A model generated the notes under the pieces. It saw nothing but the letters and a program-made list of their open reading frames with translations, searched no databases and was not told the origin of the DNA. DNA of 64,000 bases from Terriglobus albidus (GTDB lineage: Bacteria > Acidobacteriota > Terriglobia > Terriglobales > Acidobacteriaceae), in assembly GCF_025685425.1 (NCBI RefSeq), contig NZ_JAGTAS010000024.1:1-64000 (forward strand), given 5' to 3'. Position numbers and translations under genes: made by a program. Below, piece after piece: positions 9,187 through 59,490 of the stretch (positions within the stretch are counted from its first letter, which is position 1; every line of letters begins with the position of its first letter).

Positions 9187-9286
9187 AGTGCCGGGACCTA
9201 CGCGACGTAATCCCGCGAACCCCGCCAGGTCCGGAAGGAAGCAACGGTAACGGGCCAGTACGTGCGCAGTAGGCTCCCCGGTACTT
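9187..9286 (+). ncRNA. ffs: Signal recognition particle RNA, small bacterial (4.5S) type
   Basis: The apical SRP-RNA signature GCCAGGTCCGGAAGGAAGCA is present. The 5' segment GTGCCGGGACCTAC pairs with the 3' segment GTAGGCTCCCCGGTAC, giving the single long hairpin of the small SRP RNA. It binds Ffh, which works with FtsY (encoded at 276). A TAAACT about ten bases upstream could be the -10 element. It lies between divergent rimO and fabH, and the T run after 9286 could serve termination. Confidence 0.92.
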
Positions 9287-15903: not shown

Positions 15904-18060
15904 ATGACTCGTGAGCAATTGGATCTTGCGCGGCGTCGTGCCTTCGGGCTGGACAGCAATGCGCTTTTAATTTTGGAAGACGCCCGTGCGTGGGTTGACC
16001 GCATGGGACTCGTTCTGTGGACGCCGAAGACGCAGCTTGCTGCCCCCGCCCCCGTCTTCGTTTCGGCGGTAAGTGGAGTTGCGGAACCTGGAGTGGCCGA
16101 GGCAGAGGCTGCAAAACAGATGCTGGGCCGTCTGGTCCGTGAGGGAGCGGCCGTACCGCTGCTCCTGCTGGGAGGCGCCGCCCCCGGCGATATTCCGGAT
16201 TTCGTCGTGAGCGCAGCCGCGTTGCCTTATCTCTACACACTGCGCGGCGACAAGAGCTGGAAGGCAGCCCCGGCGGCATCGTCGCTCTCCCCGCTCGCAC
16301 TGAAGGTCTGGGGCGTGTTGAAGTCCAAGGGACCGCAGACCGTCTCCAACCTGCTTCCCGAGCTTGGCCGCGAGCTGACGCATGCCGCCGTGCTACGGGC
16401 GCTTAGCGAGTTGTGGGCGATGCTGCGCGTAATTCCGGTGTACCAGGATGGCGAAGAAGAGACCCAGTGGGAGCTGCTCACTGCTCGGTTTACCAAGCAG
16501 ATCAAGGCCGGCGGCAATGCCGGTGTGCCGACCGCTCTCTCCGCCATGATCTCGCTGTATCTGACTGCGGTGTTGGTTGCGGAGCTCGATGAGATTGAGG
16601 CGTTCCTCTCGCCGCTGGTGGCGCGTTCGAAGGTACGGGACGCCGTTAGCGGCTTGAACGCCGCCCGCCAGCTCGACGAAGTGGTGCTCGAAGGCAAGAC
16701 GTTGCTGCACATTCGCGGCGAGCTGCCGGAGATGCCTGAGATCGTTCCTGTTGAGGTGAGTGCAGAGGGCGCAAGCGAAGAAGGCGACACCATCGACGTG
16801 GGCGATGTCGGCGAAGCTGAGCCCGATCGTGAAAATCTGCTGGAGCGCGCTCGTCAGCGTACCGAGAAGACCTTTACAGAAGACCGTCGCCGCGTAGAAC
16901 GCCGGCCGGCGGCCCGAGAAGGCGAGCGTCCAGCACGGAGAAGCTCCCGCGCCGAGGAAGGTACTGAAGGCGCAGAGCGTAAGCCGTTCCGCCCACGCAA
17001 GGAGTTTGGCGATCGCAAGCCCTTTGATGGGGAGCGGAGACCGTTCCGTCCTCGCGAAGCCGGTGAAGGCAGTGAACGCCCAGCGCGTCGTAGCTTTGGC
17101 GGAGATCGTGACCGCAAGCCGTTCCAGCGCAAACCGTTCGATGGAGAGCGCAAGCCCTTCCGTCCTCGCGAAGAAGGTGAGGGCAGTGAGCGTCCGGCGC
17201 GCCGCAGCTTCGGCGGCGACCGTGACCGTAAGCCTTTCCAGCGCAAGCCATTTGATGGAGAGCGTAAGCCGTTCCGTCCGCGCGAAGAAGGTGAAGGTAG
17301 TGAGCGTCCGGCACGCCGCAGCTTCGGCGGCGACCGTGATCGGAAGCCGTTCCAGCGCAAGCCATTCGATGGCGAGCGTAAGCCATTCCGTCCCCGCGAA
17401 GAGGGTGAGGGTAGCGAGCGTCCGGCCCGTCGCAGCTTTGGCGGGGACCGCGACCGGAAGCCCTTCCAGCGTAAGCCGTTTGATGGCGAGCGTAAGCCGT
17501 TCCGCAAGCGGGAAGAGGGTGAGGGTGGTGAGCGTCCTTCACGTCGTAGCTTTGGCGGCGACCGCGAGCGTAAGCCGTTCCAGCGCAAGCCATTCGACGG
17601 TGAGCGCAAGCCGTTCCGCAAGCGTGAAGAGGGTGAGGGAAGTGAGCGTCCTGCACGCCGCAGCTTTGGCGGCGATCGTGATCGCAAACCCTTCGACGGA
17701 GAGCGTAAGCCTTTCCGTAAGCGTGAAGAGGGAGGAGAGGGTGGCGAACGTCCGGCACGCCGCAGCTTCGGCGGCGACCGTGATCGTAAGCCGTTCCAGC
17801 GCAAACCGTTTGATGGGGAGCGCAAGCCGTTCCGCAAGCGCGAAGAAGGAGCAGGGGAAGATCGTCCGCGCCGTACCTTCAAGGCTGACGGAGGTAAGCC
17901 ATCCTTCGGCGGCAAGAAGTTCGGTGGAGCTCCTAAGAAGTTTGGCGGGGCGCCCAAGAAGTTTGGGTCGAAGCCGGGCGGAAGATCCGGAGCTCCGAAG
18001 AAGTTCGGCAAGCCCGGCGCCGCGAAGCCGTTCCGCAAAAAGCGGGAGAGTGATGAGTAA
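15904..18060 (+). CDS. Winged-helix-like protein with long Arg/Lys/Phe-Gly repeat tail
   Basis: 718 residues. Residues 1-290 are a folded region with several helix-rich, winged-helix-like segments (SPLALKVWGVLKSKGPQTVSNLLPEL resembles a wHTH); the layout recalls AlkZ-related proteins, but this is not certain. An acidic linker follows (about 290-330). From about residue 340 the protein is low complexity: roughly seven 38-residue units of the pattern RKPFQRKPFDGERKPF then an EGEGSERPARRSFGGDRD part, ending with KKFGGAPKKFG. Such basic RG/FG-rich tails usually bind RNA or DNA. The stop overlaps the cmk start (TAATG). Confidence 0.75.
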   Translation: MTREQLDLARRRAFGLDSNALLILEDARAWVDRMGLVLWTPKTQLAAPAPVFVSAVSGVAEPGVAEAEAAKQMLGRLVREGAAVPLLLLGGAAPGDIPDFVVSAAALPYLYTLRGDKSWKAAPAASSLSPLALKVWGVLKSKGPQTVSNLLPELGRELTHAAVLRALSELWAMLRVIPVYQDGEEETQWELLTARFTKQIKAGGNAGVPTALSAMISLYLTAVLVAELDEIEAFLSPLVARSKVRDAVSGLNAARQLDEVVLEGKTLLHIRGELPEMPEIVPVEVSAEGASEEGDTIDVGDVGEAEPDRENLLERARQRTEKTFTEDRRRVERRPAAREGERPARRSSRAEEGTEGAERKPFRPRKEFGDRKPFDGERRPFRPREAGEGSERPARRSFGGDRDRKPFQRKPFDGERKPFRPREEGEGSERPARRSFGGDRDRKPFQRKPFDGERKPFRPREEGEGSERPARRSFGGDRDRKPFQRKPFDGERKPFRPREEGEGSERPARRSFGGDRDRKPFQRKPFDGERKPFRKREEGEGGERPSRRSFGGDRERKPFQRKPFDGERKPFRKREEGEGSERPARRSFGGDRDRKPFDGERKPFRKREEGGEGGERPARRSFGGDRDRKPFQRKPFDGERKPFRKREEGAGEDRPRRTFKADGGKPSFGGKKFGGAPKKFGGAPKKFGSKPGGRSGAPKKFGKPGAAKPFRKKRESDE
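17019..17862 (+). repeat. In-frame tandem repeats, about 114-bp period
   Basis: Consecutive units are spaced 114 bases (38 codons) apart, for example around SFGG codons near 17208, 17322, 17436 and 17550. One later unit has lost the QRKPF part. Synonymous differences between units show that the array is not freshly expanded. Confidence 0.9.
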
Positions 18061-38005: not shown

Positions 38006-39595
<1,590 letters not shown>

Positions 39596-44467: not shown

Positions 44468-45535
44468 CTAATCGGCCGACACCGCAGACTCCGCATCAAG
44501 CATCTCCTTCATCGACATCTCGTAAGGTGCCTGAAGGACGCCGCGCTCCGTTATGATCGCCGTCACATACTTCGCGGGAGTGACGTCAAATGCGGGGTTT
44601 TCGATGCCCACACCGTGCGGGGTCATCTGCTTGCCGTTCGAGTGCGTGACCTCAACCGGAGAACGCTGCTCGATCGGGATCTGGTCACCGTGCTCTGTCG
44701 CCAGATCGATGGTCGACCATGGGGCGGCTACGTAGAACGGAATGCCGTGTTCCTTGGCCAGAACTGCGACGGAGTACGTGCCGACCTTGTTGGCGACGTC
44801 GCCGTTGGCGGCGATGCGGTCCGCGCCGACAATCACGGCCTGAATGCGGCCCTGACGCATCAGGGTGCCGGCCATGTTGTCGCACAGAACGGTGGTGGGG
44901 ATGTTGTCCTGCATCAGCTCCCAGGCGGTGAGACGCGCGCCCTGGAGATAGGGTCGCGTCTCGTCGGCGAGAACGTCGATCTTGTGGCCACGTTCTACGG
45001 CGGCGCGGATAACACCGAGCGCGGTTCCATAGCCGCAGGTGGCCAGAGCGCCGGCGTTGCAGTGGGTCAGTACGGTGCCTTTCCGCGGAAGCAGGGCAGC
45101 GCCGTGAGCCCCCATCTCCCTGCAGGCTTCGATATCGGCGTCGTACATGGCCTGTGCCTCTGCGATGAGCGCGGCCTTGATCTTCGGAATGGTGATGCCG
45201 GGCTTTGCGAGCAGCTCCTTGTACTTCTCATTCATGCGATCGATCGCCCAGAAAAGATTCACCGCGGTGGGACGGGTAGCCGCGAGCACCTTGCTCATCT
45301 CTTCGACTTCAGCGCTGAGCTGGTCAAGCGTGGCGGCGGAGCTGCGGTCGACACCGAGGGCGATGCCCATGGCGGCGGAGACGCCGATGGCAGGAGCGCC
45401 GCGCACGATCATGTCGCGGATGATGGTGGCAACGTCCTGATAGCTGGTCGCGGTGACGTAGATTTCATCAAGCGGCAGCTTCGTCTGGTCGATAAAGCGG
45501 ACGCCTTCGGGTGTCCATTCGAGGGTAGGAATCAT
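44468..45535 (-). CDS. mtnA: S-methyl-5-thioribose-1-phosphate isomerase
   Basis: Converts methylthioribose 1-phosphate to methylthioribulose 1-phosphate in methionine salvage. 355 residues: [35 protein letters not shown] with the catalytic Cys, [17 protein letters not shown] with the catalytic Asp, [18 protein letters not shown] and [16 protein letters not shown]. These exactly follow the mtnA subgroup of eIF2B-like proteins. Confidence 0.96.
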
Positions 45536-56022: not shown

Positions 56023-57483
56023 TCACTCCATTCCATAGAAGGCGCCGAAGAATTTATAGATGGACCAGTGGTCTACCTTTGAGCTCATCTCGTAAGTCGC
56101 ATGCATGCTGAGCAGCGGAATACCGACGTCCAGCACTTCCATGTTCCGCGCCGAGAGGAAGCCTCCAATCGTGCCTCCTCCACCAACTTCGACACGCGGC
56201 GTCTGCGTCTGCCATGCGATGTTGTTCTTGTCGAGCAGAGCGATGATGCGGGCGGTGAACTCTGCGTTCGGATCAAAGCCTGCGCCATAGCGTTTGATGG
56301 TCACACCATAGCCGACGACCGCCGCATTCGATGCTTCTGAGTTACCGGGGAAGAGCGGGTTTACGCCGTCATTGCAATCGGCCGAGAGCACGGCGGCGTT
56401 GCGTAGCGCATGACGGACATCGAGTGCCGAAGCCCCTTTCTTTTGCGCGTCCATCAGTTCCGTAAAGACCGTGTCGAGGAATTGCGAGTTGGCGCCAGTG
56501 TTGTTGATGGAGCCGACTTCTTCGAAATTGGTAGCGTAGACCATCGCGGTCTTCTTCGGCGTGCCTTTCAGATCGAAGATGCCGCGTGAGGCTGCATAGC
56601 TGAGCGCCTTGTCATCCTGACCCCAGCTTCCGGTCAGTCCGCTGTCGATACCGACGTCGGCGGGTTGTGTTGCCGGCACAAGTTCCAGCTCAGCGGCAAC
56701 AAGATCCTCGTCCTTGATGTTGAACTTCGCACGCAGGGCGGCCATCACCTGGTCGGCGACAGAGCTCTTCTCGCTGGGAATCGAACCGGCGACCGGATTC
56801 ATTTCCTCGCCCGCGAGGACGGTGGTGTAGGTGCGGGTGCGTAACAGCGAGTCGGAGTGAGGCGCGGCATCGGCAATGACGAAGACAGGATCTCCGGGAG
56901 CGAAGCCGATATTTACCTGCAGGTGCCGGCCGTCGGTGGTATCGATGCGACCGACCAATGCCAGCGGAAGATTCGACCACTGGTACTTCTTGATGCCGCC
57001 GTAGAGGGTGGTCTTCAGCAGAGCAACGGAGCCCGGAGCGCCGACAACCGGGCGCGACTTCAGGTTCAGATGGGGTGAGTCCTGGTGGGTGGCGACGATG
57101 CGTGTGCCCGTCTCTACGGGATCAGCACCGATGATGGCAAAGACTAGAGCGCGGTCACGATTGTCGAAGATGAGCTTGGCGCCCGGCTTGATCTGCGAGG
57201 GAGAGGTGAATTCGCTGAACCCAGCAGCTTTGGCCAGTCGGAGGAACTCCGCAGTGGAAAGGCCGGCGCTCTTGGCGTGCCGCAGGTAGTCCTTATAGGG
57301 CTCGGCGAAGGCGAAGACGTCCGACTTCTGCTGAGCCGTAAGCGTGAGCCATGCGGACCTGGCTGCGACCTTGCCGTCCGGGTTTAGTGAGGCCTCTTGT
57401 GCGGCGAGGGGAAGCGCAGCCAGGGGCGCGAATATAACGGCGAGAGCCGCCAGGACGGCGGTACGGACCAGGAATCTCGGCAT
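56023..57483 (-). CDS. Secreted M18 family aminopeptidase
   Basis: About 486 residues with a signal peptide (PRFLVRTAVLAALAVIFAPLAALPLAAQ), which is unusual because M18 enzymes are normally cytosolic. Metal-site motifs: ATHQDSPHLNLK (HxD), TNFEEVGSINNTGANSQF (EE), SADCNDGVNP (metal Asp) and SMHATYEMSSKVDH (metal His). Cleaves N-terminal acidic or neutral residues. The start at 57483 begins the signal peptide. Divergent from the SAM-riboswitch operon. Confidence 0.9.
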   Translation of the reverse strand: MPRFLVRTAVLAALAVIFAPLAALPLAAQEASLNPDGKVAARSAWLTLTAQQKSDVFAFAEPYKDYLRHAKSAGLSTAEFLRLAKAAGFSEFTSPSQIKPGAKLIFDNRDRALVFAIIGADPVETGTRIVATHQDSPHLNLKSRPVVGAPGSVALLKTTLYGGIKKYQWSNLPLALVGRIDTTDGRHLQVNIGFAPGDPVFVIADAAPHSDSLLRTRTYTTVLAGEEMNPVAGSIPSEKSSVADQVMAALRAKFNIKDEDLVAAELELVPATQPADVGIDSGLTGSWGQDDKALSYAASRGIFDLKGTPKKTAMVYATNFEEVGSINNTGANSQFLDTVFTELMDAQKKGASALDVRHALRNAAVLSADCNDGVNPLFPGNSEASNAAVVGYGVTIKRYGAGFDPNAEFTARIIALLDKNNIAWQTQTPRVEVGGGGTIGGFLSARNMEVLDVGIPLLSMHATYEMSSKVDHWSIYKFFGAFYGME

Positions 57484-57626
57484 GGCGGAAGGATAAACCG
57501 AAAAGAGCGGTTTTCCTGCATTTCGCTGCACTTAGCCGCCATTGGCTGCGGCTATGGCTTGTCTGGAGGCGCATAGCGTGATACAAACAGTACATTCAAG
57601 CAAGCCCGCAAGGGTAAGCGCGAATT

Positions 57627-57732
57627 TCATGAAGAGTGGTTGAGGGACGAGCCCTGTGACACCACGACAACCGGACAGAACAAAGGCGTACCGGTGTCAA
57701 CTCTCTCCTGGCGACAGGGAACATGAGATTCG
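57627..57732 (+). ncRNA. SAM-I-clan riboswitch
   Basis: The sequence keeps the S-box order: P1 strand TTTCATGA, GAGTGGTTGAGGGACGAGCCC, TGTGACACCACGACAACC, a P3 stem (CCGG...CCGG), GGTGTCAACTCTC, P4 stem CCTG-GCGA-CAGGG, and the closing P1 strand ACATGAGA. Stems GTGGT/ACCAC, GGG/CCC and CATGA pair as required. It precedes threonine-synthase-like and MoaD-like genes. Downstream, CTCCACATGGAG (near 57827) can form a hairpin next to the ribosome-binding site, a candidate expression platform. Confidence 0.85.
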
Positions 57733-57845
57733 GAGTAGGAAAGTTGCAAGTTCCCACCCCGCGCTCCTCGTTCCTGAGTTAAGAGCGCCACTTCCAGAGA
57801 GACAGTCACACGCAGAACCCTCCTCCACATGGAGAGCAAGGCCCT

Positions 57846-59129
57846 ATGTCTTCTGGTGCGTGTGCGCCCTACGATCTGAAGTGTAAAGAGTGCGGCAAGA
57901 GCTACGGCAAGCAGCCGCTTTCAATCTGCGATGAGTGCTTTTCGCCGCTTGAAGTCTTTTACGACCTCGATGCGGTGAAGGGTAGCGTGACCCGGGAGTC
58001 CATTGCTGCCGGGCCTGCAAGCATCTGGCGCTATCGTGCGCTGCTTCCCATTCCTGAGGGCTTCCAGCCCGATCTTCCGGTTGGCTTCACACCGTTGGTC
58101 AAGGCCAACAACCTGGGCAAGCGTCTCGGCGCTTCCGATATCTACGTAAAGAACGATGCTGTTTGTTTCCCGACACTGAGCTTCAAAGATCGTGTCGTCG
58201 CCGTGGCCCTGGCCAATGCCCGCTCCTTCGGCTTCGACACTGTCGGCGCCAGCTCGACGGGCAACCTGGCAAACTCGGTGGCTGCGCAGGCCGCCCGGCT
58301 GGGGCTGAAGAGCTGCATCCTGATTCCGGCTGACCTCGAGCCGGCAAAGATTCTGAATACACTGATCTACGGTGCGCGCCTGGTGCGCATCGACGGCAAC
58401 TACGACCACGTCAACCGTCTCTGCTCGTTGATCGCCGACCAGTACAACTGGGGCTTCGTCAATGTGAATCTGCGGCCTTACTATGCCGAGGGCTCGAAGA
58501 CGATGGGTTATGAGATCGCCGAGCAGCTCGGCTGGCGTCTGCCCGACAACGTCGTGGTGCCGATGGCCGGCGGATCGCTGATCCGCAAGATCAAGAAGGC
58601 CTTCGACGAGCTGGTGTATCTCGGTATCGTCGAGGCGAAACACGTGAAGTTCTTCGGGGCGCAGGCTACGGGCTGCTCGCCCATTACACACGCGGTGAAG
58701 AACAACCTCGACCGCCATGAGCCGCAGAAGCCAAACACCATCGCCCGCTCGCTGGCGATTGGTAATCCGGCCGACGGCCCATATGCGGCCCGTCTGATCC
58801 GCGATACCGGCGGCTGGGGTGAGGATGTCTCCGACGTCGAAGTCGTCTCCGGCATTCAGGAGCTGGCGGAGACCGAAGGTATCTTCACGGAGACGGCAGG
58901 CGGCGTAACCACGGCTGTGACCGCGAAGCTCTTCGCACAGGGCCGCATTGGTAAGGACGAGACCACAGTGGTCTGCATTACCGGCAACGGCCTGAAGACC
59001 ACCGATGTGCTGCAGGGCCGCTACGACATCGGACGCGCGGTGAAGCCGCGGCTGGCCGAGTTTGACGCTTATCTGTGCGAGCTGGACGGTCTGCCCGCTG
59101 CGGAAGAGGCCGAGCTGGTAGCTCAGTAG
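57846..59129 (+). CDS. Threonine synthase-like PLP enzyme with N-terminal zinc ribbon
   Basis: 427 residues. An N-terminal ribbon LKCKECGKSYG with ICDECFSPLEV (four cysteines), then the PLP fold: SFKDRVVAVALA with the Schiff-base Lys, ASSTGNLANSVAAQAARLG, VVVPMAGGSLIRKI, FTETAGGVTTAVTAKL and CITGNGLKT. This is threonine-synthase-like, which acts on O-phosphohomoserine. SAM-riboswitch control and the MoaD-like partner argue that the product could be homocysteine rather than threonine. Ordinary ThrC remains possible. Confidence 0.88.
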   Translation: MSSGACAPYDLKCKECGKSYGKQPLSICDECFSPLEVFYDLDAVKGSVTRESIAAGPASIWRYRALLPIPEGFQPDLPVGFTPLVKANNLGKRLGASDIYVKNDAVCFPTLSFKDRVVAVALANARSFGFDTVGASSTGNLANSVAAQAARLGLKSCILIPADLEPAKILNTLIYGARLVRIDGNYDHVNRLCSLIADQYNWGFVNVNLRPYYAEGSKTMGYEIAEQLGWRLPDNVVVPMAGGSLIRKIKKAFDELVYLGIVEAKHVKFFGAQATGCSPITHAVKNNLDRHEPQKPNTIARSLAIGNPADGPYAARLIRDTGGWGEDVSDVEVVSGIQELAETEGIFTETAGGVTTAVTAKLFAQGRIGKDETTVVCITGNGLKTTDVLQGRYDIGRAVKPRLAEFDAYLCELDGLPAAEEAELVAQ

Positions 59130-59159
59130 ACGAGAAACAGAAAGAGCAGGGAAGATTCA

Positions 59160-59441
59160 ATGTCAATCAAAGTACTTTTGCCTACCGCCTTTATCCGCCA
59201 CACCGATGGTGTGAAGAAGGTTGACTCCGTCGCTACCAATCTTCCGGGCCTGGTCGATGACCTGGGTGTGAAGTTCCCGGCGCTTGGTGCGCATATCAAG
59301 GACGAGCAGGGCAAGCTGCGCCCGTTCATCAATGTCTACGTGAACGATGAGGACATCCGCTTCCTCGGTGGCGAGTCGCATACCTTCGAAGATGGAGACG
59401 AGATCATGTTGATTCCGTCGATCGCCGGTGGGTGTGTGTAA
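59160..59441 (+). CDS. MoaD/ThiS-family sulfur-carrier-like protein ending in GGCV
   Basis: 93 residues, beta-grasp (ubiquitin-like) fold: IKVLLPTAFIRHTDGVKKV, DLGVKFPALGAHIKDEQGKLRPFINVYVNDEDI, and DGDEIMLIPSIAGGCV. The body resembles CysO of mycobacteria and ThiS/MoaD. Those normally end in Gly-Gly for adenylation; here two extra residues (CV) follow, so a protease would be needed to expose it. Translated 30 bases after the threonine-synthase-like gene. Confidence 0.9.
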   Translation: MSIKVLLPTAFIRHTDGVKKVDSVATNLPGLVDDLGVKFPALGAHIKDEQGKLRPFINVYVNDEDIRFLGGESHTFEDGDEIMLIPSIAGGCV

Positions 59442-59464: not shown

Positions 59465-59490
59465 AAAGCCCGCCAGATGGCGGGCTTTTG
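59465..59490 (+). terminator. Intrinsic terminator closing the riboswitch operon
   Basis: AAGCCCGCC-AGAT-GGCGGGCTTTTG, perfect stem with T run, 24 bases after the MoaD-like stop. Confidence 0.92.

Follow-up and report, generated by a model that had tools for sequence, protein, structure and literature searches.

The window (the whole 64,000-nt stretch of DNA that was analysed) carries a SAM-I riboswitch followed on the same strand by the gene of a PLP enzyme with the threonine-synthase fold and by the gene of a CysO-type sulfur carrier (Table 1). This unit is predicted to be a homocysteine-synthase operon of the MetM/MetO type that is repressed by SAM, a reading to which we assign a probability of roughly 0.86. 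The pathway itself is already known from Streptomyces MetM and is not new. Beyond what is in print, we found three genomes with SAM-II-type switches, carrier tails that in our sample occur only together with a JAMM protease, a branch of 28 genomes mostly devoid of a linked carrier, and carrier genes at 29 of 29 cyanobacterial loci among the best 80 loci of the contig search.

Table 1. Coordinates of the operon features in the window and of the SAM-II-type matches at three related loci
Feature	Position	Strand	Basis
SAM-I (S-box) riboswitch aptamer	57624..57729	+	RF00162, 71 bits, E 1.4e-14
Putative expression platform: CTCC (57820-57823) pairing with Shine-Dalgarno-like GGAG (57831-57834)	57820..57834	+	predicted fold
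MetM-type PLP enzyme (threonine-synthase fold), predicted homocysteine synthase using O-phosphohomoserine	57846..59129	+	PALP, residues, tree, model
MetO/CysO-type beta-grasp sulfur carrier, precursor ending SIAGG-CV	59160..59441	+	ThiS, CysO 3dwg, conserved adjacency
Possible intrinsic terminator, GCCCGCC...GGCGGGC followed by a T run, 3' of the carrier	59466..59490	+	by eye
RF00521 match upstream of the enzyme, L052	6285-6359
RF00521 match upstream of the enzyme, L053	5365-5439
RF00521 match upstream of the enzyme, L054	5470-5543

RESULTS

The SAM-I riboswitch and its leader

The aptamer matched RF00162 (gathering score, 44.4) over the full length of the model, in agreement with the SAM-I-clan riboswitch that had been claimed in an earlier note on this DNA; the interval given there for the whole unit (57627-59441) was right to within 3 nt. 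In a search of the whole 6.1-Mb genome this was the sole SAM-I match. A chance riboswitch was ruled out by the score and by the retention of the element in relatives. The SAM-I helices, including the junction, are present in the predicted fold of the leader, and the 243-nt leader as a whole folds no better than shuffled sequences (z −1.2). The Shine-Dalgarno-like GGAG lies 11 nt upstream of the enzyme ATG, and its predicted pairing with CTCC in a hairpin over the ribosome-binding site suggests translational control. By eye, a CTCC...GGAG leader was seen in five of nine relatives (L022, L025, L026, L029 and L033) and was not obvious in the others (L023, L027, L041 and L043). A scan of positions 57450-57900, which include the stretch between aptamer and ATG, yielded neither an intrinsic terminator nor a promoter match.

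For the comparison of loci, a covariance model (R1) was built from 27 SAM-I matches, that of the window among them. With this model SAM-I was found in 22 of the 23 other loci of the same family that were fetched (L022-L044), being missing in L044, as well as in 38 of 70 loci of the phylum and in 27 of the best 80 loci of a wider contig search, none of these belonging to the 29 cyanobacterial loci (0/29). The switch can also lie far 5' of the enzyme gene, as in L051 (2.3 kb) and L074 (1.3 kb). Three genomes (f70) have no SAM-I match and carry a SAM-II-type RF00521 match 0.2-1.0 kb upstream of the enzyme gene (Table 1), with scores of 36.3-40.2 bits, just above the cut-off of 36.

The enzyme departs from canonical threonine synthases

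The window enzyme (P0001, 427 aa) has PALP as the only domain found (E 9e-68) and is thus not a Cys_Met_Meta_PP enzyme. It reached 272 bits with TIGR00260 (thrC), above the cut-off of 167, and 281 bits with the threonine synthase model NF006050, below the cut-off of 303. For its part, the cysteine synthase A model PRK10717 gave 38 bits against a cut-off of 387 (among the best 25 of 39 families), a score so far under the cut-off that P0001 is not a cysteine-synthase-type PLP enzyme. An AlphaFold2 model computed from a 27-row alignment had a mean pLDDT of 88, and its top PDB matches were threonine synthases. Among the 27 aligned orthologues, P0001 included, one of the zinc-ribbon-like cysteines is invariant (C28) and the other three (C13, C16 and C31) are present in at least 90%, so that the threonine-synthase fold with a zinc ribbon proposed earlier stands.

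Five canonical threonine synthases were used for comparison, namely those of Thermus and Bacillus, the ThrC encoded on contig C39 of the same genome, and those of loci L081 and L082. Residues common to all five, Thermus T88, S155, N157, R160, N191 and S248-W249, at positions which we take to be substrate binding, are replaced in P0001 by L141, N208, R210, Y213, L245 and D310-G311, and the canonical ThrC set is thus absent from it. This L/N/R/Y/L/DG signature was found in 99% or more of the 123 main-branch homologues, in 28 of 28 homologues of a second branch (branch B; see below) and in the actinomycete homologue Nonomuraea L175. A paralogue on contig C28 of the same genome also deviates from the canonical set, but keeps R160.

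In the tree, P0001 falls within a threonine-synthase-related clade distinct from ThrC, and 112 homologues split from five paralogues with an SH-aLRT of 99; the value comes from a quick tree search with SH-aLRT and without bootstrap, which gave a warning for long outgroup branches and in which the deepest forks of the family have no clear order. The 8 of 29 cyanobacterial homologues that were included fall with the MetM-type enzymes, and Nonomuraea L175 sits on a long branch without a settled position.

The carrier gene and its linkage to the enzyme

The second gene begins 30 nt after the enzyme stop codon, on the same strand, an arrangement from which we infer that both genes form one transcript. 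Its 93-aa product ends in SIAGGCV, matches ThiS (E 2e-10) and has M. tuberculosis CysO (3dwg) as the closest solved structure (E 3e-17), which confirms the MoaD/CysO-like carrier ending in GGCV recognized previously.

Among the best 80 loci of the contig search, which cover several phyla, a carrier gene lies at most 500 nt downstream of the enzyme gene in 71; the rest comprise three loci with a carrier 1.4-1.6 kb away, four without one and two at a contig edge. At the 29 cyanobacterial loci among these 80 it stands directly behind the enzyme homologue in every case. In the main branch of the phylum, the fetched stretch contains a carrier at 36 of 42 enzyme loci, including L039, where the gene (tail, TL) was seen by six-frame search and translation, and the loci without one are L042, L048, L058, L061, L062 and L063. 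Locus L042 belongs to genome G023 of the same family as the window and has SAM-I and the enzyme, but the 965 nt that follow contain no carrier; G023 has a single carrier, encoded on a different contig close to the JAMM gene. A switch and enzyme without an adjacent carrier within the family count against the operon reading. Nonomuraea L175 has SAM-I 5' of the enzyme and a GG-ending carrier 3' of it.

Fused carriers were also observed. Three loci, each with a SAM-I match, encode a 171-aa protein in which the carrier is fused to a further domain (L123, 8167-8679; L134, 6336-6848; L141, 7257-7769). Pfam identified the L141 protein as ThiS plus a NIL domain, and the L123 and L134 proteins are equally long, with similar tails; NIL domains occur in methionine transporters. 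By eye, an apparent fusion of a carrier with a MoeB/ThiF domain is encoded a few kilobases from the enzyme in L053 (7838-9001) and L057 (7859-8500).

Distribution across the phylum

The sample consisted of 297 genomes from one phylum, the window's own genome included. We take this phylum to be Acidobacteriota, since the nearest named loci (L094, L095 and L096) are Acidobacteria, Edaphobacter and Granulicella records. P0001 had matches at 1e-40 in 202 of them, from which a set of 72 orthologue-bearing genomes (70 with at least 48% identity, and G112 and G215 with fragments) was separated by an identity gap from paralogues at 39% or less. The Fisher tests that follow treat related genomes as independent, and their significance is therefore overstated.

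A CysO-type carrier was found in 71 of the 72 enzyme-bearing genomes and in 73 of the 225 enzyme-free ones (P = 1.5e-26; counted at E 1e-10, linked carriers included, with a model made from carriers at these loci and at others). JAMM proteins (E 1e-8) were present in 65 of 72 and 71 of 225, respectively (P = 2e-19). Within the family of the window, 24 of 25 enzyme-bearing genomes have at least two carriers, compared to 0 of 6 others (P = 1e-5).

Homoserine acyltransferases showed the opposite trend. MetX-type proteins occurred in 6 of 72 enzyme-bearing genomes versus 67 of 225 others (P = 1.3e-4) above a line of 215 bits that was drawn after the scores were known; the TIGR01392 cut-off (500 bits) was reached by 0 of the 297 genomes and 0 of 14 controls. 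Adding nine further genomes at 150-178 bits did not weaken the contrast. In the window's family MetX was present in one of 25 enzyme-bearing and five of six enzyme-free genomes (P = 2e-4). Weaker matches to the MetX model, found in many genomes with and without the enzyme and, at 147-149 bits, in the enzyme-bearing G249 and G257 of the same family, are probably other hydrolases. MetX or MetA, taken together, were rarer with the enzyme (10/72 versus 87/225; P = 8e-5), and MetA alone showed no contrast (4/72 versus 20/225; P = 0.46). The six enzyme-bearing genomes with a MetX-type protein and the four with a MetA-type protein count against the homocysteine reading. None of the 10 genomes of the phylum with HcyBio has the enzyme.

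Carrier tails and the JAMM protease

Residues follow the GG in 23 of the 37 carriers of the phylum that lie beside or near the enzyme gene, all 23 in JAMM-bearing genomes, whereas the 14 that end in GG come from nine genomes with and five without JAMM (P = 0.005); 21 of the 23 tailed carriers belong to the window's family, so that they amount to nearly one evolutionary case. The tails vary among close relatives (CV, CM, CK, IA, SF and CC), and thus, to judge from these sequences, only the presence of a tail and not its residues seems to be conserved. Elsewhere, carriers end in GG at all 29 cyanobacterial loci among the best 80, and 17 of 19 carriers of other phyla have an extension after GG.

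Seven of the 72 enzyme-bearing genomes gave no JAMM match at 1e-8, which counts against the operon reading. Five of these (G019, G026, G128, G153 and G169; assembly completeness, 92-100%) combine the enzyme with a plain-GG carrier, and the other two (G140 and G215) were outside the tail count. The five genomes suggest that JAMM serves to trim a tail and is not required by the synthase reaction. A requirement of JAMM for product release was also considered, and is opposed by the same five genomes if their assemblies are complete.

A branch mostly without linked carriers

Branch B of the tree comprises 28 rows, all from the phylum. At least two carriers were found in only 9 of its 28 genomes, compared to 42 of the 44 other enzyme-bearing genomes (P = 9e-9). 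The carrier stands beside the enzyme in one locus (L073) and 2.6 kb off in another (L077), and the branch mostly has no linked carrier. Model R1 detected SAM-I at 10 of the 28 loci. Gene calls in these neighbourhoods are rough (codon-position GC rule); by eye, genes resembling homoserine dehydrogenase or kinase stand at several loci, and some loci carry genes for sulfite reductase, siroheme synthase and PAPS reductase, assignments that Pfam bore out for all three in L081 and for sulfite reductase in L084. Having few dedicated carriers and homoserine and sulfite-reduction neighbours, the enzymes of this branch may share CysO, the carrier of the cysteine pathway, or use sulfide.

Two observations on this branch are added. 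Positions 445-9100 of L081 encode, on one strand, a homoserine dehydrogenase-like protein, a thrC paralogue, a thrB-like protein, the MetM-type enzyme, PAPS reductase, siroheme synthase and sulfite reductase, the homoserine dehydrogenase-like and thrB-like genes being identified by eye. Long open frames around the remote carriers hint that carrier-MoeB/ThiF fusions are common in the branch.

Related genes in the rest of the genome

The genome has two further threonine-synthase-type genes, 34-35% identical to P0001. That on C39 adjoins a homoserine kinase gene (thrC-thrB), and the C28 paralogue passes NF006050 (535 versus the cut-off of 303). Given that the only SAM-I of the genome lies in the window, the thrC on C39 is a separate one without the switch, as the earlier note had anticipated; the absence of any other threonine synthase, which the note had named, together with an enzyme making only threonine, as fatal to its proposal, is thus not what was found. 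The JAMM protease and the E1-like MoeB/ThiF protein for which the note had proposed a search are both present. A single Prok-JAB match at 0.01, with the motif HxHx7SxxD intact, belongs to a CysM-JAMM-CysO-MoeZ cluster on C31, and two ThiF/MoeB proteins were detected, of which that on C31 also has a rhodanese-like part (by eye).

Neither MetX (at E 1e-20), MetA (at E 1e-10) nor HcyBio (at E 1e-15) was detected in the genome, and the HcyBio/DUF39 route was rejected for it on the last result. Four clear Cys_Met_Meta_PP enzymes are encoded, including a tandem pair on C24. Among the matches listed, none reached an NCBIfam cut-off, and the models assign them no substrates; as such, the four count against the homocysteine reading and are its main loose end. 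The whole-genome search placed no SAM-I switch at the separate thrC or at these four genes.

Other features were noted in the window: a ThiC-like ORF (38120-39595, by eye), the window having no TPP riboswitch at or above the Rfam gathering score; an MtnA-like ORF (44468-45535, minus strand, by eye; methylthioribose-1-phosphate isomerase) of methionine salvage, about 12 kb from the operon and without a SAM switch; an ORF (15904-18060) whose N-terminal part is followed by numerous, almost identical repeats in which R, K, F, E and G abound; and a bacterial small SRP RNA (9189-9286, 70.5 bits).

DISCUSSION

The predicted operon would work as follows. At low SAM the leader would open the ribosome site, and enzyme and carrier would be made. 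The carrier would then be trimmed after Gly-Gly by the single JAMM protease of the genome and adenylated by the E1/rhodanese protein (MoeZ-like), leading to a C-terminal thiocarboxylate. The PLP enzyme would take O-phosphohomoserine from ThrB, eliminate phosphate and add the sulfur of the carrier at the gamma carbon, rendering homocysteine. Such a route would replace homoserine acyltransferase plus sulfhydrylase, and the acyltransferase step was not found in the genome at the thresholds given above.

Several known systems resemble it. The carrier belongs to the CysO family, as in the CysM/CysO/Mec system of mycobacteria, where the same carrier, E1 and JAMM logic serves a fold type II PLP enzyme; unlike CysM, the window enzyme is on the threonine-synthase branch, its predicted product is homocysteine, and a separate CysM cluster is present elsewhere in the genome. 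HcyS/HcyD/MetY of Wolinella succinogenes, ascribed to Krishnamoorthy and Begley in 2011, reportedly constitutes a protein-thiocarboxylate route to homocysteine in which a JAMM protease trims the carrier. MetY is a Cys_Met_Meta_PP enzyme using acylated homoserine, unlike P0001, which is a PALP protein. The carrier MetO, encoded downstream of MetM in Streptomyces, is said to have Gly-Gly, to act as a thiocarboxylate and to be the partner of MetM; the window likewise has a Gly-Gly carrier gene directly 3' of the enzyme, and differs in its phylum and in the two residues after GG of the carrier precursor.

As related in the available text of PMC12172450, which cites Hasebe et al. 2024 (AEM 90:e01247-24), Streptomyces MetM is a threonine-synthase relative with an upstream SAM riboswitch that converts O-phosphohomoserine into homocysteine. 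The window enzyme is equally threonine-synthase related, with a SAM riboswitch 5' (RF00162, 71 bits). On this precedent, the homocysteine-synthase route from O-phosphohomoserine put forward in the earlier note is probably right, and it is not original. The likeness to S. albulus MetM follows the published description, and the sequence anchor is Nonomuraea L175 (56% identity). The literature search returned no paper on this enzyme-carrier gene pair in Acidobacteriota; the portion of a Granulicella proteome study available to us (PMC7315648) has merely a ThrC in a list.

An assayed relative is the cyanobacterial enzyme described as a "moonlighting ThrC" (Kim et al. 2025, PMC12172450), for which the authors' BLAST gave 51.6% identity to S. 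albulus MetM. According to the accessible parts of that paper, the M. aeruginosa enzyme forms threonine from O-phosphohomoserine in vitro and deaminates threonine, yields only an unidentified peak with Na2S, and has no SAM riboswitch; its authors hold that it does not appear to be fully a MetM homologue in the cell. The terms "moad" and "sulfur-carrier protein" do not occur in the text of the paper that was available. The 29 cyanobacterial loci among the best 80 show 57-61% identity to the window-enzyme alignment and have a carrier behind the gene, so this ThrC probably belongs to the same family; it differs from the window in lacking a SAM riboswitch and in having been assayed, in the text available, as a threonine synthase and deaminase.

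An ordinary or moonlighting threonine synthase with a deaminase side activity, that happens to be controlled by a SAM switch, with O-phosphohomoserine being divided between threonine and methionine, would account for the TIGR00260 score (272 versus 167), for the fold and for the activity measured with the cyanobacterial relative (PMC12172450, available text). However, the genome has another ThrC beside ThrB, the residues common to the canonical enzymes are replaced in P0001, and 71 of 72 enzyme-bearing genomes have a CysO-type carrier. To our knowledge such a carrier has no role in threonine synthesis, and from the S-box regulons known to us SAM control of threonine synthesis would be unexpected. 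We regard this explanation as improbable. The carrier is nearest to CysO, and S-box control of cysteine genes occurs in other bacteria, both of which could point to a second, SAM-controlled CysM-like enzyme making cysteine from O-phosphoserine and the carrier thiocarboxylate; yet a dedicated CysM-JAMM-CysO-MoeZ cluster on C31 already stands elsewhere in the genome, for which reason this reading was rejected as hardly credible. The 38 bits of P0001 with the cysteine synthase model against 272 with thrC (best 25 of 39 families), and the homoserine genes adjoining several distant relatives, also speak against it.

It is very unlikely, too, that homocysteine comes from a plant-like cystathionine synthase with O-phosphohomoserine as its substrate, with the operon only trimming the O-phosphohomoserine pool. 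The four clear Cys_Met_Meta_PP enzymes, with their tandem pair on C24, offer candidates for such an activity, but none of the four (0/4) has a SAM-I switch, and the linked carrier and its co-occurrence with the enzyme would be left unexplained. The homocysteine-synthase operon is thus the reading that we prefer.

A broader proposal is put forward tentatively, at somewhat less than even odds. In these Acidobacteriota the homocysteine carrier would be made as a masked precursor, GG being followed by one to many highly variable residues, and the single JAMM protease of the cysteine cluster would gate both cysteine and homocysteine synthesis. Branch B would mostly borrow CysO, one thiocarboxylate protein serving two amino acids, and the cyanobacterial "moonlighting threonine synthases" would be homocysteine synthases that depend on the carrier and were assayed in its absence. 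The claim made for the cyanobacterial ThrC is now directly testable.

The interest of the system lies in the spread of the family, the replacement of one switch by another, the pattern of tails and JAMM, and the re-reading of the cyanobacterial ThrC. Many genes that pass threonine synthase models are suggested to be homocysteine synthases, easily mislabelled as belonging to threonine synthesis; the distinguishing marks are a downstream carrier and, in Thermus numbering, L for T88, R for N157 and Y for R160. Price et al. 2018 (PMC5764234, as far as the available text goes) expected at least one more homocysteine pathway still to be found, for which the MetM route is a candidate. Bacteria with no detected homoserine acyltransferase may thus make their methionine by a MetM-type route.
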